Positions 29,119-51,153 of a stretch of DNA of 64,000 nt are shown here, piece after piece (the stretch's first letter is position 1; each line of letters starts with the position of its first letter). Position numbers and translations under genes: made by a program. This DNA comes from Flavobacteriaceae bacterium UJ101 (GTDB lineage Bacteria; Bacteroidota; Bacteroidia; Flavobacteriales; UJ101). The notes under the pieces were generated by a model. It was not told the DNA's origin. It did not search any database and worked only from the letters and a program-made list of their open reading frames with translations. The stretch lies in NCBI GenBank assembly GCA_001880285.1, contig CP016269.1, positions 2,242,501 to 2,306,500 of the forward strand, written 5' to 3'.

Positions 29119-29139
29119 CTAGTAGCGGGAGCAGGACTC
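29119..29139. repeat. Left attachment site (attL) of the integrative element
   Basis: Twenty-one bases, c followed by tagtagcgggagcaggactc, repeat exactly at 51077-51097 in the same orientation. They correspond to the T-arm 3' side, acceptor 3' strand and flank of tRNA-fMet. Confidence 0.9.
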
Positions 29140-32318: not shown

Positions 32319-32359
32319 TTTAATTAAACAAATATAAGCATTTTCTTGACTTGTCAAAT

Positions 32360-33220: not shown

Positions 33221-33269
33221 ACGTCTACTTTTTGTACTCATATAATATATAAGTTTGAAAAGTAGACGT
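33221..33269. repeat. 49-bp inverted-repeat element, copy 1
   Basis: Perfect 12-base arms, acgtctactttt (33221-33232) and aaaagtagacgt (33258-33269), enclose a 25-base AT-rich centre. It matches copy 2 at 47046-47094 without gaps, including 17 consecutive identical bases (atataatatataagttt) in the centre. No T run follows on either strand, so it is not a standard terminator. Confidence 0.85.
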
Positions 33270-34176: not shown

Positions 34177-34479
34177 ATGGTATTAGCAGAATTATTAAAA
34201 TCAAAAAGAGAATCTAAAGGTTTATTAATTAGAGAGGTGACTTATAAAGTAAATGTAGATACTGCTTTAATAAGTAAGATTGAAAAAGGAGATAGAAAAC
34301 CCATTAGAGAGTAAATTCAAAAATTAGTAGTTGCTCTAGACATAAATTACAGTAAGTTACTAACATTATGGCTTAGTGAAAAAGTATACGAAAATGTACA
34401 GGGAGAAAATGCTGTTGTAGATGCTATTAAGCTAACTTTAAAAAGAATTAAGACAGAAGTGAAAGTTAATGACCAGTAG
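34177..34479 (+). pseudogene. XRE-family regulator broken by one in-frame stop codon
   Basis: From the ATG at 34177 the frame reads MVLAELLKSKRESKGLLIRE, then a recognition helix region VDTALISKIEKGDRKP, then a TAA stop at 34312-34314 (codon 46), and continues in the same frame to the TAG at 34477-34479 with a helical C-terminus (KLVVALDINYSKLLTLWLSE). The codon before the stop is GAG and the next residues are IQKL; a CAA (Gln) codon changed to TAA by one C to T step would restore the usual HTH pattern REQIQKL. No other damage is seen, so the break is recent or a sequencing error. Its end overlaps the UvrD start by 11 bp, so it heads that operon. Confidence 0.85.
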
Positions 34480-37378
34480 AAATAATAAAAATCAACAACT
34501 TGCAATAGATACTGCTGAAGGTCCTGTTTTAATTATAGCAGGTCCAGGTGCAGGTAAAACTAGAACACTAGTAGAAAGAACAGTTAATCTTATTCAAAAA
34601 GGAACTAAACCAGAAGAAATTTTAGTTGCAACATTTACTGAAAAAGCTGCTAAAGAATTAGTTACTCGTATTTCTAATAGACTGCTAGAATTAGAGGTTA
34701 AGGTAAATCTTAATGAAATGTATATTGGTACATTGCATTCAATATTCTTAAGATTTCTAGAAGAATATAGAGAATTTACTAGATTAAAAAGAAGTTATAG
34801 ATTACTAGACCAATTTGACCAGAAATTTTTCTTGTATCAAAATATGAGGGATTTTGTGGCAATTGAAAATTCAGAAGAAATTTTAGGAGGACATAATTTA
34901 TCTAGTTGGCATAAGGCAGATAAATTAATTAACTATATAAATAAAGTTGGAGAGGAAAATTTAGACTATCAACAACTAATTAGTTCAGAAGATGCCAATG
35001 TTTCAGTTATTGGTGAGTTCTATAAACTATATATAGAAAAACTAAATGAAGAAAATGCATTAGATTTTTCTTCAATCCAAAGTGAAACCTATGACCTAAT
35101 AAAAAATAATCAAAATGTATTAGATGAGATACAGTCAAAAATAAAATACTTTATGATTGATGAGTATCAAGATACTAACACTATTCAAGAGAAAATAGTA
35201 TTGCTTCTAGCTTCAAAAAACAATAATATTTGTGTCGTAGGTGATGATGACCAAGGGTTATACAGATTTAGAGGTGCTACAATTAGAAATATCTTAGAAT
35301 TTCCAGACAACTTTCAGAAAGGAATTTGTAAGGAAATTAAAATAACAACAAATTATAGGTCACATCCAGAAATTATAAATTTTTATAATAATTGGATGGA
35401 TGAGTTGGACTGGACTAAAGAGGGTAAAACATTTAGGTTTGACAAAACAATTGTGCCTCGTGAAGACAATTTTATTAAAGCACCTACAGTAATTAAAGTA
35501 TCTAGTGAAGCATCATTGCACCATTATTTTGAGGAAGTATATCAATTTATAATAGAACTTGAAAATAAAAGAGTTTTAAAAGATAGAAATCAAATTGCAT
35601 TTTTATTTAAGTCTGTAAAAGGTGAAAGGGTTAATGCTCTAGCAGAATATTTGGAAGAAAGAGGAATTAAAGTGTTTAGTCCACGTTCTGCACTATTTTT
35701 TGAAAGAGAAGAAATTAGATTATTAATTGGTGCTATAGTTTTTATTTTTCCAGATTTATTTGATGTTTTAGCTTGGAGTGATACTGCTAAACTAGATATC
35801 TGGAAATATTATGATTCTTGTAAAAGGCAATTTGGTAATGCAATAAGACAAGACTTAGAAAAACATAAGGCTTTATTGCAATGGTGTCAAGATAAAGCTA
35901 AAAGACATCTCACTTTAACTGAAGGTACAAATTATAGTCTAGCTGCATTGGTGTATCAGCTATTAGAATTTTCAATGTTTTCAGATTGCCTTAATGTAGA
36001 TTTAAAAGCTAACAAAACAGACCTAAGAGCTTCTTATAATATAGCTTTACTTACAAAGTTACTTTGGAAGTTTGAGTATCTATATAATGTAACTGTAATA
36101 ACACCTGAAAATAAGGAGAAAGTTCTCCAAAATCTATTCAATAGATTTTTCAGATTTTTAAATGATGGTGGTTTAGAGGAGTTTGAAGATTTTGATGAAT
36201 ATGCTCCATCTGGATGTGTATCTTTTATGACTATTCATCAATCTAAAGGTTTAGAGTTTCCTATTGTATTTGTTGGTATGCCTACTAATAGACAAGGTCC
36301 AAGAAAACAATATGATGATGTAGATGAGTTACTGCAAGAAGAATACTACCACAAACCACCTTTTGAGCCTTTAGAAGAAGTAAAATATTATGATTTTTGG
36401 AGGTTGTATTATACTGCATTTTCTAGACCTCAAAATGTATTGGTTCTAGGCAACTACGAAACAAGAAATGCCAAAGGAATAGTTAATTCACCTCATAAAT
36501 TACTACAGGATAGTTATGCAAAAGCACCACATTGGAGAAATGAAAATGTAGATATTACAAAGTATAATTTGGCAGAAATTAAGCCTACTAATATAAAACA
36601 TGAATATTCTTTTACTTCTCATATTTTACTTTATGAAAACTGCCCTTTACAATATAAGTTCTATAAGGAATTAGAGTTTACAGAAGTAAGAACTGGAGGT
36701 GTTTTAGGTGGACAATTGCTACACCAAACTATAGAAGACATTCATAAAGCTGTACTTAAAGATGAAGTACATACATTAACTAATGAAAATATTGAGGCTT
36801 GGTTTAATACTAATTACCATCTACTAACTAAACAGCAAAAATCTTATTTACATTTACCACAGAGAAAAGCACTGCTGAAACAAATTTTAAACTATAGAGA
36901 CAAGAATAGTAATGATTGGGACAAGATTGTTGAAGCTGAAGTTGATGTTTCACTTGTTAAAGAAGATTATATATTAAAAGGTACAATAGACCTCATTAGA
37001 GGAGAAAATAACACAGTAGAACTCATAGACTTTAAATCTGGAAGCAAACCAGATGTAAATGCTACAGATGAACTCACAAGAGGTTTATTAGACAGGTACA
37101 GAAGACAACTAGAGGTTTATGCACATTTAGTTGAAGAAAGAACAGGACACAAGGTAAGTAAGATGCATCTGCATTACCCTAAAGAGGAAAATAGTAGTCC
37201 TTATATCACATTTAATAAAAATGAACATACTATTAGTAAGACTGTAGAATCTTTTGATGAAATAGTTGAAAAAATAGAGAGCAAAAACTTTGACAACTCT
37301 CATATTGTTAAAAATGACAAACAATGTGGTGAATGTGATATGAGGTTTTACTGCAACCCAAAACATAATAGAAATTAA
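34469..37378 (+). CDS. UvrD-like helicase fused to a RecB/AddB-type nuclease with Fe-S cysteines
   Basis: The 969-residue product has SF1A helicase motifs: Walker A GPGAGKT (25-31), motif II DEYQD (231-235), motif III GDDDQGLYRFRG (258-269), NYRSHPE (295-301) and MTIHQSKGLEFP (587-598). The C-terminal 250 residues form a PD-(D/E)xK nuclease of the RecB/Cas4/AddB group: His752, Asp841 (GTIDLI), Asp854-Phe-Lys856 and Gln880-x3-Tyr884. Cys725 (ENCPLQYKF) plus Cys953, Cys956 and Cys962 (CGECDMRFYC) match the AddB-type 4Fe-4S arrangement. It probably unwinds and degrades DNA. It is the second gene of the operon and is followed by mod after 20 bp. Arginine codons are almost all AGA/AGG, unlike core genes. 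Confidence 0.9.
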   Translation: MTSRNNKNQQLAIDTAEGPVLIIAGPGAGKTRTLVERTVNLIQKGTKPEEILVATFTEKAAKELVTRISNRLLELEVKVNLNEMYIGTLHSIFLRFLEEYREFTRLKRSYRLLDQFDQKFFLYQNMRDFVAIENSEEILGGHNLSSWHKADKLINYINKVGEENLDYQQLISSEDANVSVIGEFYKLYIEKLNEENALDFSSIQSETYDLIKNNQNVLDEIQSKIKYFMIDEYQDTNTIQEKIVLLLASKNNNICVVGDDDQGLYRFRGATIRNILEFPDNFQKGICKEIKITTNYRSHPEIINFYNNWMDELDWTKEGKTFRFDKTIVPREDNFIKAPTVIKVSSEASLHHYFEEVYQFIIELENKRVLKDRNQIAFLFKSVKGERVNALAEYLEERGIKVFSPRSALFFEREEIRLLIGAIVFIFPDLFDVLAWSDTAKLDIWKYYDSCKRQFGNAIRQDLEKHKALLQWCQDKAKRHLTLTEGTNYSLAALVYQLLEFSMFSDCLNVDLKANKTDLRASYNIALLTKLLWKFEYLYNVTVITPENKEKVLQNLFNRFFRFLNDGGLEEFEDFDEYAPSGCVSFMTIHQSKGLEFPIVFVGMPTNRQGPRKQYDDVDELLQEEYYHKPPFEPLEEVKYYDFWRLYYTAFSRPQNVLVLGNYETRNAKGIVNSPHKLLQDSYAKAPHWRNENVDITKYNLAEIKPTNIKHEYSFTSHILLYENCPLQYKFYKELEFTEVRTGGVLGGQLLHQTIEDIHKAVLKDEVHTLTNENIEAWFNTNYHLLTKQQKSYLHLPQRKALLKQILNYRDKNSNDWDKIVEAEVDVSLVKEDYILKGTIDLIRGENNTVELIDFKSGSKPDVNATDELTRGLLDRYRRQLEVYAHLVEERTGHKVSKMHLHYPKEENSSPYITFNKNEHTISKTVESFDEIVEKIESKNFDNSHIVKNDKQCGECDMRFYCNPKHNRN

Positions 37379-37398
37379 GATTATTAACCATTCGTAAT

Positions 37399-39210
37399 AT
37401 GGCACAAGATAAATTAGACCTAGATATTCAAAAGAAATTGGATACAGTAGAAGAATACAAGTTTGAACCTATTAAAGGTTACCCAATGTTACATTGGAAA
37501 GGAAAGAGACCTTTTACATCTACACAGTACTATCCTGCACAACAAAAAGAAAATTATGGTGAAGAAGTAAATGGTTGGATGAACAAAATTTTTTGGGGAG
37601 ATAACCTCCAAGTTATGTCTCATCTTCTAAAAGAATATAGAGGAAAAATTGACTTAATTTATATTGACCCTCCATTTGATTCTAAGGCTGATTATAAAAA
37701 GAAAATTTCTTTAAAAGGAAAATCAATTACAAATAATCATCAGGCTTTTGAAGAAAAACAATATACTGATTTATGGACAAATGATGGGTTTTTACAGTTT
37801 ATGTATGAAAGACTTCTTTTAATTAAAGAATTATTATCTGATAAGGGTAATATTTATGTGCATCTAGATGAAAAAAGAGTTCATTATGTTAAGCTAATAA
37901 TGGATGAGATATTTGGAATTGATAATTTCCAGAGAGAAATAATATGGGATATTACTGTTTTATCAGGTTTCAAAACTCAGGCACAAAATTGGATTAGAGG
38001 TCATGATACGATTTTATACTATTCTAAAAACAAGAACAATACTTTCAATAAATTAAAACAGCCTCATACCCAAGAGTATCTAGATGGATTTAAAAAATTT
38101 GATGAAAATGGAGACGCTTATATGGTTGCTCATAAATTGAAAAGATATAGAAAAGATGTAGAATTTAAAGGTAAACCATTTGGTGATGTTTGGGGAGATA
38201 TAATGTCTTTTCAACAACAACCAACTGCTGAAGAAAATGTAAAATACCCTACTCAAAAGCCTGAAACTTTATTGGAAAGAATAATCCATGCATCAAGTGA
38301 ACCAGGTTCTATAGTTTTTGATTGTTTTATGGGGTCTGGAACTACACAAGCTGTTGCAATGAGACTAGGAAGAAAGTTTATTGGAGCAGATATAAATTTA
38401 GGAGCTATTGAAACTTCAGTAAAAAGACTAAATAAAGTAGCTGGTAAAATAAGTGATAATCCTCCTAAACTAAATTTGTTTGGAGATTATCAAGAAAATA
38501 TAGATAAATACTATACAGGTTTTTCAATTTATAATGTAAATAACTACGATGTTTTTAGAAATCCTGTACAAGCTAAAGAAATATTAAAACAAGCATTAGA
38601 AATACAACCATTACCTAATAATACTATTTATGATGGTGAAAAAGATGGTAGAATGGTTAAAATTATGCCAGTAAATAGAATAGCTACTCGTGCAGATTTA
38701 AACGAACTAATTTCAGGATTTAACTATAAATCTTTCCAAAAGAAATTTGAGAAGCAACCTAATAAACCTGTAGAAAATCTACTTTTGGTATGTATGGGAC
38801 ATGAACCAGATTTAGCTGCAACACTTCAAAAAGAAATACATCCATACAAAATTGATGTAGAGGTTGTAGATATACTAAGAGACAAGTCTAACCTAGAGTT
38901 TAAAAGAGATTCTGAAGCTGAAATAGTAGTAGAAGATAACAAGCTAGTAATTAAACAATTCTATCCAATGAACTTATTACAGAAGCTCTCTATTATGAAA
39001 GAAAATGTTGAAGATTGGAAAGAGCTTGTAGAATCTGTAAAAGTAGATTTTAATTATGATGATGCTGTATTTGAGCCTAGTGTAGTTGATATACCTGAAA
39101 AAGAAGAAATGGTAATTGGTGAATATGATATACCTGAAAATGCTGGCACAATAAGAGTAAAAATAACAGACCTATTAAGTGAATCATTAGAAATTTCAAT
39201 AGATAATTAA
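37399..39210 (+). CDS. Type III restriction-modification methyltransferase (Mod-like, N6-adenine)
   Basis: The 603-residue product has the beta-class motif order: catalytic DPPF (residues 90-93, a DPPY variant) first and the SAM-binding FDCFMGSGTT (307-316) second, with GRKFIGADIN after it. Between them lies the region that should recognise the target (about 180-290), including WGDIMSF and YPTQKPE, the latter typical of Mod enzymes. The last 250 residues are a further domain that may contact Res. It methylates adenine in an asymmetric site; the site cannot be read. No tandem repeat or long homopolymer is present, so it is not a phase-variable Mod of the known kind. The next gene starts 3 bp later. 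Confidence 0.92.
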   Translation: MAQDKLDLDIQKKLDTVEEYKFEPIKGYPMLHWKGKRPFTSTQYYPAQQKENYGEEVNGWMNKIFWGDNLQVMSHLLKEYRGKIDLIYIDPPFDSKADYKKKISLKGKSITNNHQAFEEKQYTDLWTNDGFLQFMYERLLLIKELLSDKGNIYVHLDEKRVHYVKLIMDEIFGIDNFQREIIWDITVLSGFKTQAQNWIRGHDTILYYSKNKNNTFNKLKQPHTQEYLDGFKKFDENGDAYMVAHKLKRYRKDVEFKGKPFGDVWGDIMSFQQQPTAEENVKYPTQKPETLLERIIHASSEPGSIVFDCFMGSGTTQAVAMRLGRKFIGADINLGAIETSVKRLNKVAGKISDNPPKLNLFGDYQENIDKYYTGFSIYNVNNYDVFRNPVQAKEILKQALEIQPLPNNTIYDGEKDGRMVKIMPVNRIATRADLNELISGFNYKSFQKKFEKQPNKPVENLLLVCMGHEPDLAATLQKEIHPYKIDVEVVDILRDKSNLEFKRDSEAEIVVEDNKLVIKQFYPMNLLQKLSIMKENVEDWKELVESVKVDFNYDDAVFEPSVVDIPEKEEMVIGEYDIPENAGTIRVKITDLLSESLEISIDN

Positions 39211-39213
39211 GCT

Positions 39214-41880
39214 ATGGCTAAAAAAAGAAAACAATCAGAAATTGAGTTTCCTTTTTATACTTATCTAAAGTTATTTCATGATGAGAATAAAAAGAAAATA
39301 TACAAGGCATATAGCCCATTGACAAGGAAATTTTTAAACTTCAATAATTCTGAAAATGCAAATTCTTGGTTAAGAAAGCCACAATTTGAATCTTTAGAAA
39401 TTTATGTGTTCTTAAAAGAATTTTTGGGCAACAGATATTTATACGAGATTTTTGAAGACTGGTATAATAAGTCCAACCAATTTGAAGGCAGACAAGATAT
39501 TGGTGTATCTCAATCAAAAAATACTGTTGGAACATTAGAAATGTTTGGACCTTCTGAATTTTTAGGAGAAGATAAAGTTGCCTTCAATGAAATATTTAAG
39601 CAAATAGAAGCTTTTAAACAATCTTACCCAAACTACATTTTTGCATTAGCAATGGGTATAGGTAAAACAGTTTTAATGGCTACTACTATTTTTTATGAGT
39701 TTTTACTAGCAAATAAATATCCTAAAAATACAAACTATTGTCATAATGCCTTAGTGTTTGCTCCAGATAAAACTGTTTTAATGTCTTTGAAAGAAATTGA
39801 AACTTTTGATAAGGCTAAAGTTGTGCCTCCAGAATATATTAATTGGCTAGATTCTCATCTAAAATTTCACTTTTTAGATGATACAGGTATTTCTTTAAAT
39901 GCAATAGACAATTCAAAATATAACATCATTATATCTAACACTCAAAAGATTATTCTAAAGCAAAAAAGAAAAGAAGATTCTGCTTCTGAAAAACTTTTTA
40001 ATGAGAGTGATGTGCTATATAAAGCTAAGGCTTTAAATAAAGACTTTGAGGATTTATATGGTTTTGAAATAAACACAGACCAAGAATTAATTTCTAACCA
40101 AAGATTTGCCAAGCTGATTAGGTTAAAACAACTAGGAATTTATTTAGATGAAGCTCATCATGCTTTTGGAAGTACATTAGAAAAAGATTTTGGGATTAGG
40201 AAAACTGCAACAAGTTTAAGAGTAACTATTAATGAGTTAGCAGAAGCACTTTCACAGGCTGGTTCTAAAGTGGTTGGTTGTTACAATTATACTGGTACTC
40301 CTTATGTTGGTAAAAGGTTACTCCCGGAGGTAGTATATGCCTATGGCTTAAAAGATGCTATAGATAATAAGTACCTTAAAAAAGTAAAAATACATGGCTT
40401 TGAAAATGTAAGGAACAATGCTAAAGTATTTGTTAGAACTGCAATTACAGAATTTTGGAATGAACATAAAGATAAGAGGTATGAAGAAATGCTTCCTAAA
40501 ATGGCCTTTTTTGCAGCTTCAATAGATGAACTACAAAATGAATTAAAGCCTCTAGTAGAAGAAGTGCTGTCTGAATTAGAAATACCATTAAATAAAATAT
40601 TGGTTAATGTAGGTGACCCTAAAATAACCACAAATGATGATTTAAGAGAGTTCAAAAACCTAGACACACCTAATTCTGAAAAGCAGTTTATTTTATTAGT
40701 TAATAAAGGAAAAGAGGGGTGGAATTGTAGGTCTTTATTTGGAGTAAGTTTATTAAGGTCTCCAAAATCTAAAGTTTTTGTTTTACAAGCAACAATGCGT
40801 TGTCTAAGAGCTATATCAGATGTACAACAAAAAGGTATGGTGTATTTATCTAAAGAAAATGTAGATATTCTAGAAAAAGAACTTGAACAAAACTTTAGGC
40901 TTACTATAGAAGATTTAACATCTGCTGGAGATGAAAAAGAGTTGGTAGAAGTTAGATTGGTTCCACCACCTGTAAAAATAAAACTCAAAAAGATAAAGAC
41001 ACTTCATCAGTTAAAAGAAAAAAAGTTAACAAATGGGGTTGATTTGGAATTTGACACTTTCAATTTTGAGAAATACAGAATTAAAAGAACTGAACGTGAT
41101 ATAACAGATATAACTTCTTCTAGAAAATTACAGGATATTGAGCTTACAGAACAAAGAGTGTTTTCTCAGTTAACATTAGTATCTGAAATAGCAAGATATT
41201 TGTATCATCCTGAGGGAGTTGATAATTTAAGAAAAATAAGCTGTCTAGAGATTAAGAAAGTACTTGAAAATTCAAAACAAGGCTTACCTACTGTTTTAGA
41301 AAAAGTCAACCTTTACAATGATTTTCTTTATGATTGGGTGATTCCTAAACTCTTTGAATCTTTTTATGACATAGATACTTTTACAAAAGAGGAAGAAGAA
41401 GAAATAGAGCTTGTAAAAGAACCAAAAGATGGGTATTACACATTAAGAGCTAAACCTGAATTAATTGCTAACATAGAAGATGATTTATACTCTAGTTACA
41501 AAAACAAATCTTTTCATTTAGACAACTATTGCTTTGATTCTATACCTGAATCTCAAATGTTTTATAACTTGATTAAAACAGGTGAAATTGAAAAAGTTTG
41601 GTTCACAGGAATGTTAACTCATGGACAATCAGATTTTTTAATTAGATACATAGACCCAGAATCTCACACAGTAAGGAGTTATTATCCAGATTTCCTTGTA
41701 AAATTAAATTCTGAAAAAGAAGAATATTTAATTATTGAGGTAAAAGGAGATAATAAAGTTGATGACTCTATTGTAAAGGCTAAGGCAGAATATGCTTCGC
41801 AAATAGCTGGTGCAAGTGGGATGAAATATTTGATGATAAAAGGAACTGATGCACAAAAAAAAATAACCACTCAACAATAA
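39214..41880 (+). CDS. Type III restriction enzyme, Res subunit (SF2 helicase + nuclease)
   Basis: The 888-residue product has Walker A AMGIGKT (146-152), DEAH box (312-315), the SAT-like motif YTGTPYVG and LVNKGKEGWNCRSLFG with QATMRCLRAI as motif VI. The C-terminus carries a PD-(D/E)xK nuclease: PD826 and, 15 residues later, Glu842-Val-Lys844 (YLIIEVKGDN). Type III Res subunits act with Mod: they translocate on DNA with ATP and cut unmodified DNA after meeting a second complex. The gene ends the operon; only about 100 bp of AT-rich sequence separates it from the convergent TPR gene and no clear terminator is seen there. Confidence 0.92.
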   Translation: MAKKRKQSEIEFPFYTYLKLFHDENKKKIYKAYSPLTRKFLNFNNSENANSWLRKPQFESLEIYVFLKEFLGNRYLYEIFEDWYNKSNQFEGRQDIGVSQSKNTVGTLEMFGPSEFLGEDKVAFNEIFKQIEAFKQSYPNYIFALAMGIGKTVLMATTIFYEFLLANKYPKNTNYCHNALVFAPDKTVLMSLKEIETFDKAKVVPPEYINWLDSHLKFHFLDDTGISLNAIDNSKYNIIISNTQKIILKQKRKEDSASEKLFNESDVLYKAKALNKDFEDLYGFEINTDQELISNQRFAKLIRLKQLGIYLDEAHHAFGSTLEKDFGIRKTATSLRVTINELAEALSQAGSKVVGCYNYTGTPYVGKRLLPEVVYAYGLKDAIDNKYLKKVKIHGFENVRNNAKVFVRTAITEFWNEHKDKRYEEMLPKMAFFAASIDELQNELKPLVEEVLSELEIPLNKILVNVGDPKITTNDDLREFKNLDTPNSEKQFILLVNKGKEGWNCRSLFGVSLLRSPKSKVFVLQATMRCLRAISDVQQKGMVYLSKENVDILEKELEQNFRLTIEDLTSAGDEKELVEVRLVPPPVKIKLKKIKTLHQLKEKKLTNGVDLEFDTFNFEKYRIKRTERDITDITSSRKLQDIELTEQRVFSQLTLVSEIARYLYHPEGVDNLRKISCLEIKKVLENSKQGLPTVLEKVNLYNDFLYDWVIPKLFESFYDIDTFTKEEEEEIELVKEPKDGYYTLRAKPELIANIEDDLYSSYKNKSFHLDNYCFDSIPESQMFYNLIKTGEIEKVWFTGMLTHGQSDFLIRYIDPESHTVRSYYPDFLVKLNSEKEEYLIIEVKGDNKVDDSIVKAKAEYASQIAGASGMKYLMIKGTDAQKKITTQQ

Positions 41881-45369: not shown

Positions 45370-45859
45370 TTGTAATGTTATTTAAAAAATTAATCATTTG
45401 GTCTGTTAACCATGAGGTTAATCCTATTTTGGGGTCAGTAATAAAAGTATGTCTCTTTTGACTTTCTAGAAAATCATTATAATCATCTAGAATAACATAT
45501 TGTAAAGGCTTTTTTCTTTTGCTTTGATAGTTCTTAACCCATTGTAGTATTTCATAGCCTCTTGGGGCTGGATTATTAGAACTGGGATCTTGTAAGGCAT
45601 CTGTTTTTCCTATAATTCTTCCTTTAAAGCCTACTTGAATAAAGAGAGCTTCTAAATCCTTAATGGAATATAATGTCCTCCAAGCAGAAGAAATTACAAT
45701 ATGTGCATCTGTCTTTTGAATTAATTTGTTTAGTAGTTCAATAGCTCTAGGATCAAAATTAGCCCTAGAATCTCCTATTTCAAATTCTCTGTACTTTTCT
45801 GATTTAAACCAATTTAAATTATTAAGTACCCCATCAATGTCTAAAAATATAACTTTCAT
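45359..45859 (-). CDS. HAD-like phosphatase domain protein
   Basis: The 166-residue product has the HAD motif I FLDIDGVLNN (Asp7 nucleophile, Asp9), motif II VISSAWRT, and a late acidic motif ILDDYNDF. It fits the small HAD domain of the 'Swiss army knife' RNA-repair group (PF18143 type), which may act on nucleic-acid ends. Between a recombinase-like ATPase and DUF3871 it is likely part of the DNA-processing module of the element. The start is 13 bp after the ATPase gene stop. Confidence 0.85.
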   Translation of the reverse strand: MKVIFLDIDGVLNNLNWFKSEKYREFEIGDSRANFDPRAIELLNKLIQKTDAHIVISSAWRTLYSIKDLEALFIQVGFKGRIIGKTDALQDPSSNNPAPRGYEILQWVKNYQSKRKKPLQYVILDDYNDFLESQKRHTFITDPKIGLTSWLTDQMINFLNNITNDT

Positions 45860-45872
45860 ATCCTAAATATAG

Positions 45873-46739
45873 TTAATGCGGCGCATTATTATGCACTCCA
45901 TTGGAACTAAAATGATCATGGTTGGTTAGTTGTTCCAATTGTAATTTCTTTGTTTGAAATTGAGGTTGTAAAGCTTTTTGAAACTGTGGGTAAGAAGAAT
46001 ATAATTTTTCTAATTCAGTTATGCTTAGAGCACCATTAATCCTAGCAATAACCTCTTTTACTGATATAGAATCATGATTACACCATTTTAGAATCTTTTT
46101 ACCTGTGGTTGGACTTATTGTAAATTCAGGTTTTCCCATAAATAGTCCTGTTCTGTCTTTTGAACTTGTAGCATAATGTTTTATATCTAAATCAAATACA
46201 ATAGTAAATTCATAATCTACACCATCTTTTTGTACAGCTTTTAGACCTACTTTTTCGGGAATATATTTCCCATCCTTTTGATTGAGTACATAGTCTTGTT
46301 TGGTTCTCATAGTGGCTATAATATGAGCATCAGCTTGTAACATTTTATCTACAAAAGCTTTTTGTAAAGGCATGATTTTACTCCAATTCGTAAAGCTATT
46401 ACCTGCTAGTTTAGAATGATAATCTAATAGATAATCCCAACAATGACTGATACTATCTAGTATAATAACTTCCATACCTGCTTGTAAGCATACATCTATG
46501 GCTTTAATGTATTTTTCAGTAGTAAAAGGAGGTTTTAATGTAAGTACATTATAATTCCCAAGATCAGCATATAAATCAGCACTTCCATTTTCTGTATCTA
46601 TAATGGCTACTTTGGTTAGATCATCATTAGAAAGTCCTTTTGCTAGTAATATGCTAGAGTAGGTCTTCCCTGAACCAGCACTACCTTGTAATGCCAATTT
46701 GATTTTTGCTTGTTTCCTTTCGGTTTTTCTTAATTGCAT
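45873..46739 (-). CDS. Sak4-like RecA-fold ATPase (single-strand annealing/recombination)
   Basis: The 288-residue product has Walker A GSAGSGKT (19-26), an acidic Walker-B-like strand VIILDSISHCWD, and ATMRTKQDYVLNQ, a pattern of the phage Sak4 group of RecA-like ATPases. Sak4 proteins promote strand annealing with a phage SSB; here the C-terminal 50 residues are Gln/Leu-rich and may bind a partner. It is the first gene of the backbone operon and its 5' region is 379 bp long. Such a gene is typical of prophages and satellites. Confidence 0.88.
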   Translation of the reverse strand: MQLRKTERKQAKIKLALQGSAGSGKTYSSILLAKGLSNDDLTKVAIIDTENGSADLYADLGNYNVLTLKPPFTTEKYIKAIDVCLQAGMEVIILDSISHCWDYLLDYHSKLAGNSFTNWSKIMPLQKAFVDKMLQADAHIIATMRTKQDYVLNQKDGKYIPEKVGLKAVQKDGVDYEFTIVFDLDIKHYATSSKDRTGLFMGKPEFTISPTTGKKILKWCNHDSISVKEVIARINGALSITELEKLYSSYPQFQKALQPQFQTKKLQLEQLTNHDHFSSNGVHNNAPH

Positions 46740-47118
46740 GATTATTATGTGTTTATAAAGGGTTAATATTAAAGTGAAAAATGATTCATATAAAAATGAA
46801 TATAACTTACTGTAATACAGTAAAATAAATTAAAAATAGTTATTGAAATATTTGGTGGTTTGCTAAAAAATAGTTAGCTTTGTGCATCAATAGCTTGCTA
46901 CAAAAAACTAACTCCTAAAGTAGTTCCTCGTCCATAGATCCTGCGTTGTAAAAAAATAATTTTTTGAAAGAGAGGGTGTTTAGAAATGAGGGAGAGAAAA
47001 CTTGTACAAGAGTTGTGTAAACTTTTTCATATTTGATACTTTTTTACGTCCACTTTTCGTGATTATATAATATATAAGTTTAAAAAGTGGACATTAAATA
47101 TACTTTAACTTTTCAAAA
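46740..47118. promoter_or_regulatory. Long leader region of the Sak4 operon with a plus-strand promoter
   Basis: TTTG at 46851-46854 and TAGCTTTG at 46875-46882, 20 bp apart, make a good Bacteroidota promoter reading rightward, away from the Sak4 gene. Its RNA would start near 46889 and enter the helicase gene antisense. Also seen are a palindrome tactgtaatacagta (46808-46822) and the inverted-repeat copy 2. No protein gene is visible. Confidence 0.55.
47046..47094. repeat. 49-bp inverted-repeat element, copy 2
   Basis: Arms acgtccactttt (47046-47057) and aaaagtggacat (47083-47094) pair in 11 of 12 positions around a 25-base centre. Compared with copy 1 a T-A pair has become C-G in both arms, keeping the pairing. 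It lies 24 bp after the helicase stop codon, as copy 1 lies 7 bp after a stop. Confidence 0.85.
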
Positions 47119-49632
47119 TTAATCAAGGATATTATTAATTTCTTCTTGTAGTCTATAATAATAGTTTTCCTCTCCACCAGCATGAGCTATTTCGGCTTGA
47201 ATTCTGTTTTCTAAATTATTATAATCTTGTGGAGTTATAAGGTTTATAACATTAATACTCTGTGGGAGAGTTTTTAAAGCAGTTATTTTATAAATAGAAC
47301 TTCTATCTCCAATAGGTATCTTGGATCTATTAAATACAAGAAAATCTTCACATAACATGGAGTAAAAACTATCAAGTTTTTTATCTAAAGGTTTATTTTG
47401 TAATCTGCTTTTAAATTTAAATATATTATTGGCTAATAGTTTATCATATTGTATTAAATTTTCTAATTCTTCAAATTTTGAAATATCATCTTCTGTAAAA
47501 AAAGTTGTAGAGGGTTTTGTAGGTACATAATAGAAATGTAGATGATCTGATTTATATTCTTGAATAGAGTCTGTGATTTTTGATTTAAAATGGTTTAATA
47601 GAGTGAAAAACCTTTTTTTATTAATTGACTCAGTAGATGAGTGAGTAACATGATCTACTGTACATAATTTTATATTGTCTAAAAAATAAGTGCTTCTATT
47701 ATAGCTTTGATCTGTATCAAGGTTATATTCATATTGTTTTCCATAGTACATGATAGCAATAAATTGTAGTAGTTGTATTTCAAATTCTTTAGTTCTGCCA
47801 GAATAAGGGATTATATTTTGGTAATGAGCCTCCGTATCTCTTCTGTATTTAAGTTCAAATTCATTGAATAATGTATTTCTAACCTCGTGATAATAAAATG
47901 AAAAATTAGTCCATTCCTTATAAAAATAGAAATGATCTTCTCCAAAATATTGATTATAATAATAATTTAAATCCTGTTGGATTTGACCATTAGTAAAATA
48001 CAATGTAGATTTAATATTAATTTCTTTAAGTTTACAATTTACAAACTGATTTGTTAAAGCTCCATATGTCATATAAGAGCTAATATCTTCCCCAAAGAAT
48101 GGATAGTTATTAGCAATATAATTTTCTCCATGGTTTAATTTGAATTGTTCATAACTAGGGAATTTTAATTGTAGCATGTGCTCCCGCTCAATATTATCTA
48201 TATGTTGAATTTCTTCTTTTACATTTTCTCGTAATTCATCATTGTAAAATTTGCGTATTAAAAGATCTTGATTATTTAGTTGGGAATAAGAAACTAGTTT
48301 ATCATCAACATTATACCCTAATATTGAATAAAGGTTTTGAAATTCTGCTTTTTGCACTTCTGTCATATGAGAGTGTCTTAGAGATTCATAATTAAATGCA
48401 TTAGGTCTAGGTAGTATAATGTGTATTTCTCCTTTTTTTCTTTGTCTAGCAAGGGCTTGAATAATTGAATTAATACCTCCTGAAAAAATACCATATTGAT
48501 TTTTAAATCCTAATTTTGTACTTCTAGGAGGCATAATAATGATAAAAGCATGATTTTCTTTTTTGATACTAACTCCTGTTTTAAAATTAGTACCAACATT
48601 ACATTTAGTATTATCATATTGATTTTTGGGAGTATGATTTTTTGTTCTTTGGTTAACTATTAATTCAGAGGTACAATCTTTTACATCCACAAAAGTATCT
48701 TTAAGAAGCTTTCCTATTTCCTCTTTGGAATCAATTAGACTTTTAGCTAAGGTTTTGGAATAACATAATATGTCAATATTTTTTCTTTTTGAAATAAGTT
48801 TTTTAATAAGGTCTACTATTTCAGGAGTGTTGTTATTATACCTGTAGGTTGGAGAGTAATGTAAATGCAATGAGCTTTGTTTTTCAGAAAACCTAACCCT
48901 TTTAGACTCTATAATTTTGATTTTTTTGTCTGTTAGTTCAGCTAGATATTCAATAACTATTTTTGAAGCTTCATTATAGGTAGCACTTAAAATAAAATTT
49001 TTATGAATTACATCACGCCATTTCCAAAGGTTAAAAATATACTCTTCTTTAAAATTATGGTAAGAATCATGAATTTCATCATAAATAAATATAGCTTTGG
49101 TATTTGTTGATTTACAGTAACCTATTAATTCATTTATATATGTTCTTTTTGCATCTGAATTTTTAAAAGCATCTTCTCCTGGATTACCCAGTAGGGTATT
49201 TGCGGTTACTACTTGTATAGGTTTATCCAAATAAGTTTCATCAGATCTTCCAATATTACCATAATTATAAATTTTATCTTCGGGTATTTCAGCATCTTTA
49301 TGAATATCATCACAGTATTGTTTTACAAGACTTACAAATGGTGAGGCAACTATAATAAGGTAATTTTGTCCTCCATTTTGCATTTCATTATAATATCTTT
49401 TAATGGTTTGAATAATAGCATAAGTTTTTCCTTGTCCTACTGCTGCATTGATAACTACAGTATTCTTTTGCTCTAATTGAATATTACTTTGTAAAACATC
49501 ATGAATATATCCAGTTGTTTCATTTGGTGTTATAATAATCTTATCATTTAGAATAAATTCAGGAAAATCTGAAGAATTAATTTCTTTAAATTCTATTGCG
49601 AAATCTTCGAAGCTACTATTTGGGATACTCAT
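47119..49632 (-). CDS. DEAD/DEAH-type SF2 helicase of the element backbone
   Basis: The 837-residue product has Walker A AAVGQGKT (63-70), a DEIH box (185-188), motif III ILSAT, and motif VI IIQALARQRKKGEI, so it is an SF2 nucleic-acid helicase. The region between (KCNVGTNFKTGVSIKKENHA) looks like motifs IV-V. The C-terminal 400 residues are of unknown fold. There is no nuclease motif. Genes of this type sit after the integrase on Bacteroidota islands and probably serve replication of the excised form, by inference. Own promoter region 49633-49685 has a 7-bp inverted repeat. Confidence 0.85.
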   Translation of the reverse strand: MSIPNSSFEDFAIEFKEINSSDFPEFILNDKIIITPNETTGYIHDVLQSNIQLEQKNTVVINAAVGQGKTYAIIQTIKRYYNEMQNGGQNYLIIVASPFVSLVKQYCDDIHKDAEIPEDKIYNYGNIGRSDETYLDKPIQVVTANTLLGNPGEDAFKNSDAKRTYINELIGYCKSTNTKAIFIYDEIHDSYHNFKEEYIFNLWKWRDVIHKNFILSATYNEASKIVIEYLAELTDKKIKIIESKRVRFSEKQSSLHLHYSPTYRYNNNTPEIVDLIKKLISKRKNIDILCYSKTLAKSLIDSKEEIGKLLKDTFVDVKDCTSELIVNQRTKNHTPKNQYDNTKCNVGTNFKTGVSIKKENHAFIIIMPPRSTKLGFKNQYGIFSGGINSIIQALARQRKKGEIHIILPRPNAFNYESLRHSHMTEVQKAEFQNLYSILGYNVDDKLVSYSQLNNQDLLIRKFYNDELRENVKEEIQHIDNIEREHMLQLKFPSYEQFKLNHGENYIANNYPFFGEDISSYMTYGALTNQFVNCKLKEINIKSTLYFTNGQIQQDLNYYYNQYFGEDHFYFYKEWTNFSFYYHEVRNTLFNEFELKYRRDTEAHYQNIIPYSGRTKEFEIQLLQFIAIMYYGKQYEYNLDTDQSYNRSTYFLDNIKLCTVDHVTHSSTESINKKRFFTLLNHFKSKITDSIQEYKSDHLHFYYVPTKPSTTFFTEDDISKFEELENLIQYDKLLANNIFKFKSRLQNKPLDKKLDSFYSMLCEDFLVFNRSKIPIGDRSSIYKITALKTLPQSINVINLITPQDYNNLENRIQAEIAHAGGEENYYYRLQEEINNILD

Positions 49633-49685: not shown

Positions 49686-50906
49686 TTATTTTGAATTTAA
49701 TTTATGAGCTAATAATGAAATATGTTCACTCACTTTCTTTTGAACCACTTTAGCATAGTGATCTTGAGTAGTTTGTAGTTTACTATGTCCTAGTAATTCT
49801 GATACAATTTCCATAGGTATATCATTATAGAGTAGTATAGTAGTAGCAAAAGTCTTTCTCGCAATATGATGAGTCAATCTTTTTTTAATACCTACAATTT
49901 CAGCAATTTCTTTTAAGTAAGAGTTAAATTTTTGATTTGAAATTTCAGGTAATTTTTTATGGCTATAAGGGATATTTGTATGAAATTGATTTAAATATTG
50001 CTCAGCTTTGGGTAATAAAGGAACTGAAATCCAAGAATTAGTTTTCTTTCTATACATTTGAATCCATTGATTACCATCAAATCCTATTACAATATGCTCT
50101 TTGGATAAAGCATTCATTTCTGCATAGGCTAATCCTGTATAACAGCAGAATATGAATAGATCTCTAACTTGTTTCAACCTCTTTTGAGCAAATTGGTAAT
50201 TTTCCAATTGTTTTAATTCCTGTTGAGTTAAATAAACTACTTTCTTTTCATATCTCTTAGGTTGGTACATAATAAAAGGATCTTTTTGTAAATAACCTTC
50301 TGCTAGTGCCAGCTTGATGATTTTTCTAATCCTCTGAATACTTTTGTTAATGGTAATTTGCTTATGGTTCTTTTCTGACTTTAAGTAAAAATCAAAATCC
50401 TTTAGAAAACTCATTTTTAGAGACTCTAATAGCATATCATTTTTACCATACTGAAACTTAATGAAGTTAGTAGTATGTTTCTTAGCTTCAATGAATTTAC
50501 TATAGGTTGATTTAGTATATTCCTTTCCTATCAGCTTTAACATTCTGTTATTGTGTAGTTCAAATACTTCTAATAGGGTTTTCTTTGTTTTTATATTTTT
50601 GCCCTTGTATTGTAAATAGATATCTTCTACATCAAATGATTCTTGATTAACCTGTAGAAATAAAAAAGCCTTATTAATCTTTTGACTAATAAGGTTTATC
50701 TGTGTATTGATAAAATTATTCTCTGAATTAGATGGTTTAGCTATTTGTTGTTTACTATACCATTGTTCTGGAGTTATAAAAAGTCCTAATGAAAATTCTT
50801 TACGTTTTTGCTGAAAGGTAATTCTACACCTTATTGGGCATTTACCTTGTTTATTTACTCTAACCTTTTGTAAAAGAAAGAGAATTGATAACTTATTTTG
50901 ATTCAT
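49686..50906 (-). CDS. int: Tyrosine recombinase (integrase) of the element
   Basis: I use the ATG at 50904-50906 (MNQNKLSILFLLQK); the longer frame of 48 bp upstream runs through the repeats that probably bind the protein. The 406-residue product has an arm-binding N-terminal domain (about 1-85), a SAM-like core-binding domain (about 95-200) and a catalytic domain with Lys in the beta-hairpin, HHIARK as His-x2-Arg, LLGHSKLQTTQDHY with His and the nucleophilic Tyr. The usual first catalytic Arg is absent: the box reads CYTGLAYAEM. IntDOT and related Bacteroidota integrases also lack it. It lies beside attR, reads toward the element interior and would cut within the tRNA 3' end. Confidence 0.93.
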   Translation of the reverse strand: MNQNKLSILFLLQKVRVNKQGKCPIRCRITFQQKRKEFSLGLFITPEQWYSKQQIAKPSNSENNFINTQINLISQKINKAFLFLQVNQESFDVEDIYLQYKGKNIKTKKTLLEVFELHNNRMLKLIGKEYTKSTYSKFIEAKKHTTNFIKFQYGKNDMLLESLKMSFLKDFDFYLKSEKNHKQITINKSIQRIRKIIKLALAEGYLQKDPFIMYQPKRYEKKVVYLTQQELKQLENYQFAQKRLKQVRDLFIFCCYTGLAYAEMNALSKEHIVIGFDGNQWIQMYRKKTNSWISVPLLPKAEQYLNQFHTNIPYSHKKLPEISNQKFNSYLKEIAEIVGIKKRLTHHIARKTFATTILLYNDIPMEIVSELLGHSKLQTTQDHYAKVVQKKVSEHISLLAHKLNSK

Positions 50907-50925
50907 TGTATTAAATTTTGAAAAG

Positions 50926-50968
50926 TGGTACACCTGAAAAAGAAAATGGTACACCTAATTGTATACCT
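50926..50968. repeat. Direct repeats upstream of the integrase, candidate arm-type sites
   Basis: tggtacacct occurs at 50926-50935 and 50947-50956, exactly 21 bp apart (two helical turns), and a weaker copy tgtatacct at 50960-50968. Their place between the integrase start and attR is that of arm-type integrase or excisionase sites. Confidence 0.6.
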
Positions 50969-51073: not shown

Positions 51074-51080
51074 ATTCTAG

Positions 51081-51153
<73 letters not shown>

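Follow-up and report, generated by a model that had tools for sequence, protein, structure and literature searches.

The design closest to the locus described here is that of the pIP501-type countertranscript attenuators (RNAIII; PMC4981023), in which the leader that precedes a gene on a mobile replicon contains a short antisense promoter facing alternative hairpins. We find a comparable predicted layout between a helicase gene and a Sak4-like ATPase gene on an island of Flavobacteriaceae bacterium UJ101, although, set against the pIP501 systems as that source portrays them, the downstream gene is Sak4 rather than an initiator, the element is integrated at a tRNA gene, and neither a complete leftward promoter nor a constant terminator U-run was found. 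The cis-antisense RNAs of Bacteroides (DonS type) and RteR of the element CTnDOT share with our locus the phylum Bacteroidota, a -7 box of sigma-A type and the character of short antisense or mobile-element RNAs, whereas in the account of PMC7366714 DonS acts on susC-type genes and RteR on a tra operon. The sgm-sRNA of SGI1 is likewise a conserved, island-encoded RNA adjoining its island's own transfer genes, yet it belongs to another phylum, involves other genes and, as PMC9299015 presents it, arises when the 3' end of a longer primary transcript is processed. Rfam also describes structured RNA motifs of flavobacteria, Flavo-1 among them, but none of its families matches the conserved block of our locus in the stretches searched. 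A final comparison concerns the helicase, which has in common with the herpesvirus UL9 or origin-binding protein described in PMC12543377 its membership of SF2, its approximate length and a C-terminal domain that begins near residue 540, and which is accompanied by a palindrome that recalls the inverted boxes round an AT-rich spacer of oriS in the same source; unlike UL9, it has no sequence-family match of this kind, the fold match of its C-terminal domain is not significant, and its DNA binding is putative. As for antisense transcription in general, PMC9723704 reports that 12% of the genes of F. psychrophilum have antisense RNAs, and PMC7366714 allows that part of the antisense starts in Bacteroides may be spurious, so that, on what these two sources report, the rightward RNA proposed below calls for caution.

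The window, by which we mean the whole 64,000-nucleotide stretch of DNA analysed, contains a 22 kb island whose direct repeat lies at the 3' end of a tRNA-Met gene (51080-51153, minus strand; Table 1). The island encodes an integrase, a helicase, the Sak4-like ATPase, HAD_SAK_2, DUF3871 and a RadC-family protein, the last assigned below the NCBIfam curated cut-off. Cargo at 34469-41880, read from the translations, includes a putative UvrD-like helicase and a restriction-modification-like pair. The chromosome has a sister island at 1.20-1.23 Mb (G000; L007/L008), which carries Sak4 (99% amino acid identity), HAD, DUF3871, a 142-aa ORF and RadC, with another integrase directly upstream of Sak4, and gave no match to the helicase and none to the block. 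In the helicase's place it has what we take to be a DUF3987-like gene. To judge from their sequences, the two sister islands are an instance of module swapping within one genome. Relatives of the island occur throughout the Flavobacteriia and in some other Bacteroidota. A search of the genome collection with Sak4 gave 55 loci, and in a sample of 296 genomes from the order (UJ101 included) Sak4 led to 26 and the helicase to 7. A match in G016, located between unrelated genes, was rejected.

Table 1. Positions of the features discussed, in window coordinates except for the viral copy
Feature	Position	Strand	Remarks
Island, 22 kb	29119-51097		21-bp direct repeat, 29119-29139 and 51077-51097
Exact TTTG-N17-23-TANNTTTG match	32329-32358	-	spacer 18
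Second palindrome copy	33221-33269		in front of RadC
Exact TTTG-N17-23-TANNTTTG match	45754-45784	-	spacer 19; inside the HAD gene
Sak4-like ATPase	45873-46739	-	AAA_24; phrog_1366, phrog_124
379-nt gap	46740-47118		bounded by the start of Sak4 (46739, -) and the stop of the helicase (47119, -)
Conserved block	46845-46979	- (leftward orientation)	covariance model R1, 93.9 bits
-33 element TTTG	46851-46854	+	rightward promoter; followed by a 20-nt spacer
Hairpin AGTTAG...CTAACT	46872-46913	-	3' arm holds the complement of the -7 box
-7 element TAGCTTTG	46875-46882	+	rightward promoter
Predicted start region and body of rightward RNA	46887-47000	+	inferred from the promoter; conserved block 46845-46979
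Near-invariant core CAACGCASGA...GGASGAGGA	46926-46948	-	comparison of relatives
AT-centred palindrome ("inverted-repeat copy 2")	47042-47098		directly after helicase stop
SF2 helicase, 837 aa	47119-49632	-	ResIII and DEAD
Tyrosine integrase	49686-50954	-	
L243 copy of the block	70550-70672 of a 100,482-base virus record (= L243 11236-11358)	-	between small ORFs

The initial annotation had placed a rightward promoter, TTTG-N20-TAGCTTTG, at 46851-46882 on the plus strand, and a direct reading of the sequence puts it exactly there. Judged by Bacteroidota sigma-A criteria, both a -7 box of the form TAnnTTTG (46875-46882) and a -33 TTG/TTTG are present, and N20 falls within the N19-21 spacing used by the genome. 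Strings of this kind do arise by chance: TTTG-N17-23-TANNTTTG is present in 4.0% of 1000 dinucleotide shuffles of the 379-nt gap, the TTTG-N19-21 form in 1.7% of 1000, and across the whole window the former is not enriched (10 found against 7.9 +/- 3.2 in 20 shuffles), so the promoter string alone is little proof. Calling it the best promoter on the island was fair, but it is not unique, since two more exact TTTG-N17-23-TANNTTTG matches lie between the island ends. As a calibration, we took 800 kb of UJ101's own genome with a simple ORF map and expressed TTG-N19-21-TANNTTTG per 100,000 strand-bases, which gave densities of 39.1 for the 200 nt that precede ORFs (23 sites), against 3.7 inside coding sequence (53 sites) and 14.7 at other intergenic positions (15 sites). 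The 10.6-fold higher density upstream of ORFs than in coding sequence marks TTG-N19-21-TANNTTTG as a promoter form of the UJ101 genome, and the intergenic density gives a match away from ORF starts a fair chance of being a promoter. A coding function of the gap was rejected, the sole ORFs of at least 20 aa there being 22 and 29 aa long. Upstream of the promoter, about 70 nt before Sak4, there is also a palindrome, TTACTGTAATACAGTAA, at 46807-46823, and in some relatives with a short gap a different palindrome occupies a comparable position; these are perhaps operators.

The promoter lies within a block of about 135 nt, found between the helicase stop and the Sak4 start in 11 of 20 helicase loci and absent from the other nine (L027 having been left out as a duplicate of L073). 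The covariance model R1, for which the window was one of 11 building sequences, finds the block as a single copy in the window's genome, and a wider search with it covered two families, recovering the block in 15 of the 320 genomes from the first and in 3 of the 397 from the second. Five of these 18 matches fall in genomes already in the set (L115, L119, L125, L128, L130), and the remaining 13 together with the 11 make 24 loci, of which 19-20 are distinct in sequence; pairs with identical blocks, such as L118/L113, L131/L080, L117/L081 and L126/L030, may represent the same or close genomes. The viral copy discussed below (L243) stands outside all counts of 24. In all 24 chromosomal loci the block lies between this helicase and Sak4, and in 74 other loci (35 besides the window plus 49, with 10 common to both sets) R1 found nothing better than E 0.6, two weak matches in the set of 35 loci and the window having E 0.64 and 0.93. 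The label "block" takes four changes on the helicase tree and four on the Sak4 tree, against a shuffled mean of 6.8 (13 and 14 of 500 shuffles were as low). Near-identical Sak4 genes exist with and without the block (the window versus L008; L081 versus L077), which argues that in chromosomal elements the block travels with the helicase side. A known RNA family was rejected for the block because no Rfam family matched in the stretches searched: Rfam 15 gave no match to the block in the window at the gathering threshold, no family matched at E up to 1 in L018, L020 and L022, and the one match on 46700-47160 was a chance match of E 9 outside the block. Searches of the literature on integrative elements and Sak4 of Flavobacteriia and on conserved RNA motifs turned up nothing like the block among the matches listed.

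Conservation of the promoter letters is what lifts them above chance. Within one mismatch, rightward TTG-N20-TANNTTTG is present in every one of the 24 chromosomal loci with the block, facing from Sak4 toward the helicase 3' end just as had been claimed for UJ101 and always with N20 spacing, and 17 of them carry it exactly. The -7 box TANNTTTG is kept in 19 loci, while TANNTTCG, a TTCG change, is found in five (L081, L117, L121, L127, L129); the -33 TTG is kept in 22, with TGG in L123 and L124. Across 56 columns round the box (-6 to 49) in 20 distinct sequences, seven never vary. Five of them belong to the -7 box, which had been located with a pattern that presets these five, and two to the -33 box, whose columns, like the spacing, were left free. 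All seven fall within the nine positions that make up the two boxes, every one of the other 47 columns varies, and so do the two free positions of the -7 box. The same box columns are invariant in MAFFT alignment A1, together with one between the boxes (T155), and in alignment A4, together with three in the 5' part. In the window, L065 and L030, whose neighbouring sequence has diverged, the -33 TTG nonetheless stands at N20. For a baseline, the exact rightward N20 form occurs near Sak4 in 4 of 70 Sak4-upstream stretches without the block, a set in which L033 and L072 are the same sequence. A complete leftward TTG-N17-23-TANNTTTG was found in none of the 24 gaps, and leftward -7 boxes alone in 10. 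On this comparison we consider the rightward promoter likely to be real.

Three of the other loci, L082, L037 and L086, have a different conserved element upstream of Sak4 (GGAGCTGTGCC...), 76-79% alike over 200 nt, which has low folding energy on both strands and no Rfam match at the gathering threshold.

The opposite strand carries a second kind of conservation. Leftward folding energy is below rightward in 24 of 24 loci (mean z -2.61 versus -1.29), and the expected hairpin is the best leftward fold in 21, the exceptions being L065, L026 and L129; in L065, L127 and L129 z is about zero or positive. Covariation in the outer arms reaches 58 of 76 pairs against 45.6 +/- 3.3 after permutation, a value attained in none of 5000 permutations, and is weaker once collapsed to six arm classes (17 of 24 versus 12.4; 136 of 5000). 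RNAalifold on alignment A2 missed the outer helix because MAFFT had misaligned the 5' arms. In the five loci with the TTCG change, leftward pairing is retained as U.G wobbles, as if the hairpin weighed more than the promoter. The sigma-A promoter letters are thus kept, and so is the leftward hairpin containing half of them. To judge by eye, the half of the block before the hairpin is also able to pair with the same arm, and the two leftward structures may be mutually exclusive.

The reading that we prefer, and hold tentatively, is that a real sigma-A-type promoter makes a short cis-encoded antisense RNA that would dampen read-through from the helicase into Sak4. The promoter would fire rightward, with the RNA starting near 46887; the initial annotation had put the start at 46889, and the shift follows from the flavobacterial sigma-A box, which according to PMC9723704 spans -12 to -5, with the start about 5 nt after TTTG. 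The short RNA would run antisense to the helicase-Sak4 gap, and the -7 box of its promoter is built into one arm of the predicted leftward-strand hairpin. Sak4 would be reached by read-through from the helicase side, as is suggested by the lack of a complete canonical leftward promoter among the sequences found in the gap, where, in the light of PMC7366714, a leftward promoter may still be present. Either the antisense RNA or the converging polymerase would then lower leftward read-through into the Sak4 operon, and the element's recombination genes would thereby be kept off until induction. The alteration of the promoter box in 7 of the 24 loci speaks against this scheme, as does the existence of near-identical Sak4 genes that lack the block.

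Two parts of the earlier proposal change shape under it. The promoter probably makes a real antisense or small RNA, as had been suggested, and its conservation in all 24 loci favours this; against it, the covarying structure is leftward, and between its predicted start and a point just beyond the block the rightward transcript folds much as shuffled sequence does (mean z +0.33 in 21 sequences), which also holds for its complement (mean z -0.03 in 21 sequences). Transcription into the helicase gene holds insofar as the promoter faces the helicase 3' end, but the RNA would cover the strand facing the gap and could enter the helicase frame only by crossing the palindrome at 47048-47092, the next structure downstream of the predicted RNA body. 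Control of the helicase or of copy number, the role that had been suggested for the RNA, is hypothetical, and the block also exists on a viral contig with neither gene detected.

The leftward structure could instead be all that matters. The hairpin, the alternative helix and the core would then form an attenuator or a protein-binding leader of Sak4, and the rightward promoter string would be a by-product of the CAAAG..TA arm. The lower leftward energies and the covariation suit such a leader, as do the U.G-compatible -7 box changes in five loci, the apparent alternative helix on the same arm and the U-run that follows the hairpin in the window, L073, L113 and L026. That U-run is absent from L028, L123 and L030, however, so the hairpin is not a general terminator (nor was it among the results of a terminator scan), and a complete leftward promoter to transcribe a leader was not found in the gap. 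A leader also leaves the conserved TA and TTTG, and the TTG 20 nt off and outside the hairpin, unexplained, and we regard it as unlikely to be the whole account.

The block also has a copy on a viral contig. A loose core pattern matched at least 120 stretches in IMG/VR, and R1 found the block in 0 of 80 of these and in 1 of 40, namely L243, where it scores 60.4 bits (E 2.8e-8 in 384,518 bases). In L243 the two arms of the hairpin once more complement each other (GTATC/GATAC), the -7 box reads TATCTTTG, and TAG takes the place of TTG at N20. Neither the helicase nor Sak4 has a match in the 100,482-base record of L243, which may be a fragment, and for the nine proteins tested there was likewise no helicase or Sak4 match in an 11.4-kb stretch of it that includes the block. 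The block is thus not tied to either gene, and the statement that it always lies beside the helicase is true of chromosomal copies only. Elsewhere, in phage and plasmid collections, the L073 block had no match at the DNA level and the helicase none at the protein level, while in IMG/VR the Sak4 search confirmed two loci and the helicase search and the palindrome pattern none.

Because a copy with no detected Sak4 or helicase is unexplained by a Sak4-specific role, a stand-alone RNA becomes a serious rival to the cis-antisense reading, and L243 speaks for a more self-contained element. The block would on this account be the gene of a trans-acting sRNA, a rightward RNA whose core UCCUCSUCC...UGCGUUG targets other RNAs or a protein. 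It would have a promoter of its own and a core conserved across genera, it would live apart from Sak4 and the helicase in the virus, and it would have a precedent in the SGI1 sgm-sRNA, which, in the description of PMC9299015, serves its island. Sites like GGACGAGGAAC with up to two mismatches number 9 in the window against at most 6 in any of 100 shuffles, an excess that may reflect targets of the core or the use of Gly-Asp-Glu codons. Against a free-standing sRNA, CAACGCAGGA has no extra site above chance in the window (two including itself, a number reached by 21 of 100 shuffles), the rightward RNA is not specially folded, and the viral copy lacks the -33 TTG. We think this reading quite unlikely.

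The palindrome after the helicase stop, which the initial annotation listed as the second copy of an inverted repeat in the path of the rightward RNA, is a real palindrome with perfect 10-bp arms (47048-47057 and 47083-47092), but it is a separate element that goes with the helicase, also in loci that lack the block. Of 20 helicase loci, 17 have an AT-centred palindrome of 48-61 bp that starts at most 32 nt from the helicase stop, whether or not the block is there, and none was found in L031, L092 and L099. The palindrome score was never reached in 60 shuffles each for 11 of the 17, and the window's was reached in four. The arms vary between elements and follow the helicase: L065 and L077, whose helicases are sisters (support 87/87) and whose Sak4 genes are not, have alike arms, and L073 and L081, with helicase cores 99% alike and C-termini 53% alike, have different ones. 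A link of the arms to the helicase C-terminus rather than to the whole helicase was tried and proved inseparable from it (Spearman 0.33, 10 of 2000 permutations, versus 0.31, 27 of 2000). A second palindrome with matching arms stands before RadC in two of the three elements with both genes (the window and L080, not L092), and the two copies in the window differ in their arms by a compensated change, GTCTAC/GTAGAC versus GTCCAC/GTGGAC. In several loci A- and T-runs flank the palindrome, and an ordinary terminator was considered for that reason and set aside as less likely in view of the constant length and the AT-rich centre.

The helicase itself was compared by fold. Its AlphaFold2 model has a mean pLDDT of 82.4, and in Foldseek against the PDB ranks 1-4 were the HSV-1 origin-binding protein on oriS (best E 3.8e-9, with TM 0.28-0.31 and rmsd over 20), followed by many other SF2 helicases; among the best 20 viral matches, 14 are named and 10 of those are called origin-binding proteins. 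VIA-align with residues 16-540 ranked ordinary DEAD-box cores first, and the HSV protein was absent among the 50 matches listed; PF02399 had no match in three helicases at E up to 10. The C-terminal 298 residues modelled alone (pLDDT 88.9) gave no significant fold match, the best being a winged-helix regulator at Z 4.1, with the HSV protein at Z 3.2. This C-terminal domain is strongly variable. A link between UL9-like phage helicases and mobile-element primases was predicted earlier, as PMC5862659 puts it. From these models, the helicase may be a putative bacterial relative of herpesvirus origin-binding proteins by fold, and its working like an origin-binding helicase is a lead.

A further reading, the least probable of these, makes the helicase an initiator that binds an origin, takes the palindrome for that origin and has the rightward RNA prime, activate or limit replication there. 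The Foldseek ranking, the viral matches, the 17 palindromes with arms that follow the helicase and the confinement of chromosomal blocks to this helicase all favour it. Against it, the TM-scores are low (about 0.3), the HSV protein is not among the 50 VIA-align matches listed, PF02399 gives no match at E up to 10 and the C-terminal domain alone no significant one, palindromes also stand before RadC, the block is absent from 9 of 20 helicase loci, and the viral copy has no detected helicase.

The short antisense RNA stays our preferred reading. A promoter string in AT-rich DNA is usually unremarkable; here it is the comparison of relatives that singles out the promoter letters. It gives a precise place for 5' mapping, tied to a conserved element that we found described nowhere in the literature searched, and the copy on a viral contig shows that this element can travel. 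A broader possibility, which we consider improbable, is that the locus represents a new kind of replication control: a UL9-like, origin-binding helicase of a bacterial integrative element would lie next to its own oriS-like palindrome, whose arms change with the helicase, and beside a mobile promoter-hairpin element shared with a phage. A single DNA arm of that element would act on one strand as an antisense promoter and on the opposite strand as a switch helix, and Sak4 expression would thereby be tied to the firing of the origin. Should the palindrome prove to be the origin of the helicase, the locus would provide a testable replication model for a family of flavobacterial islands.
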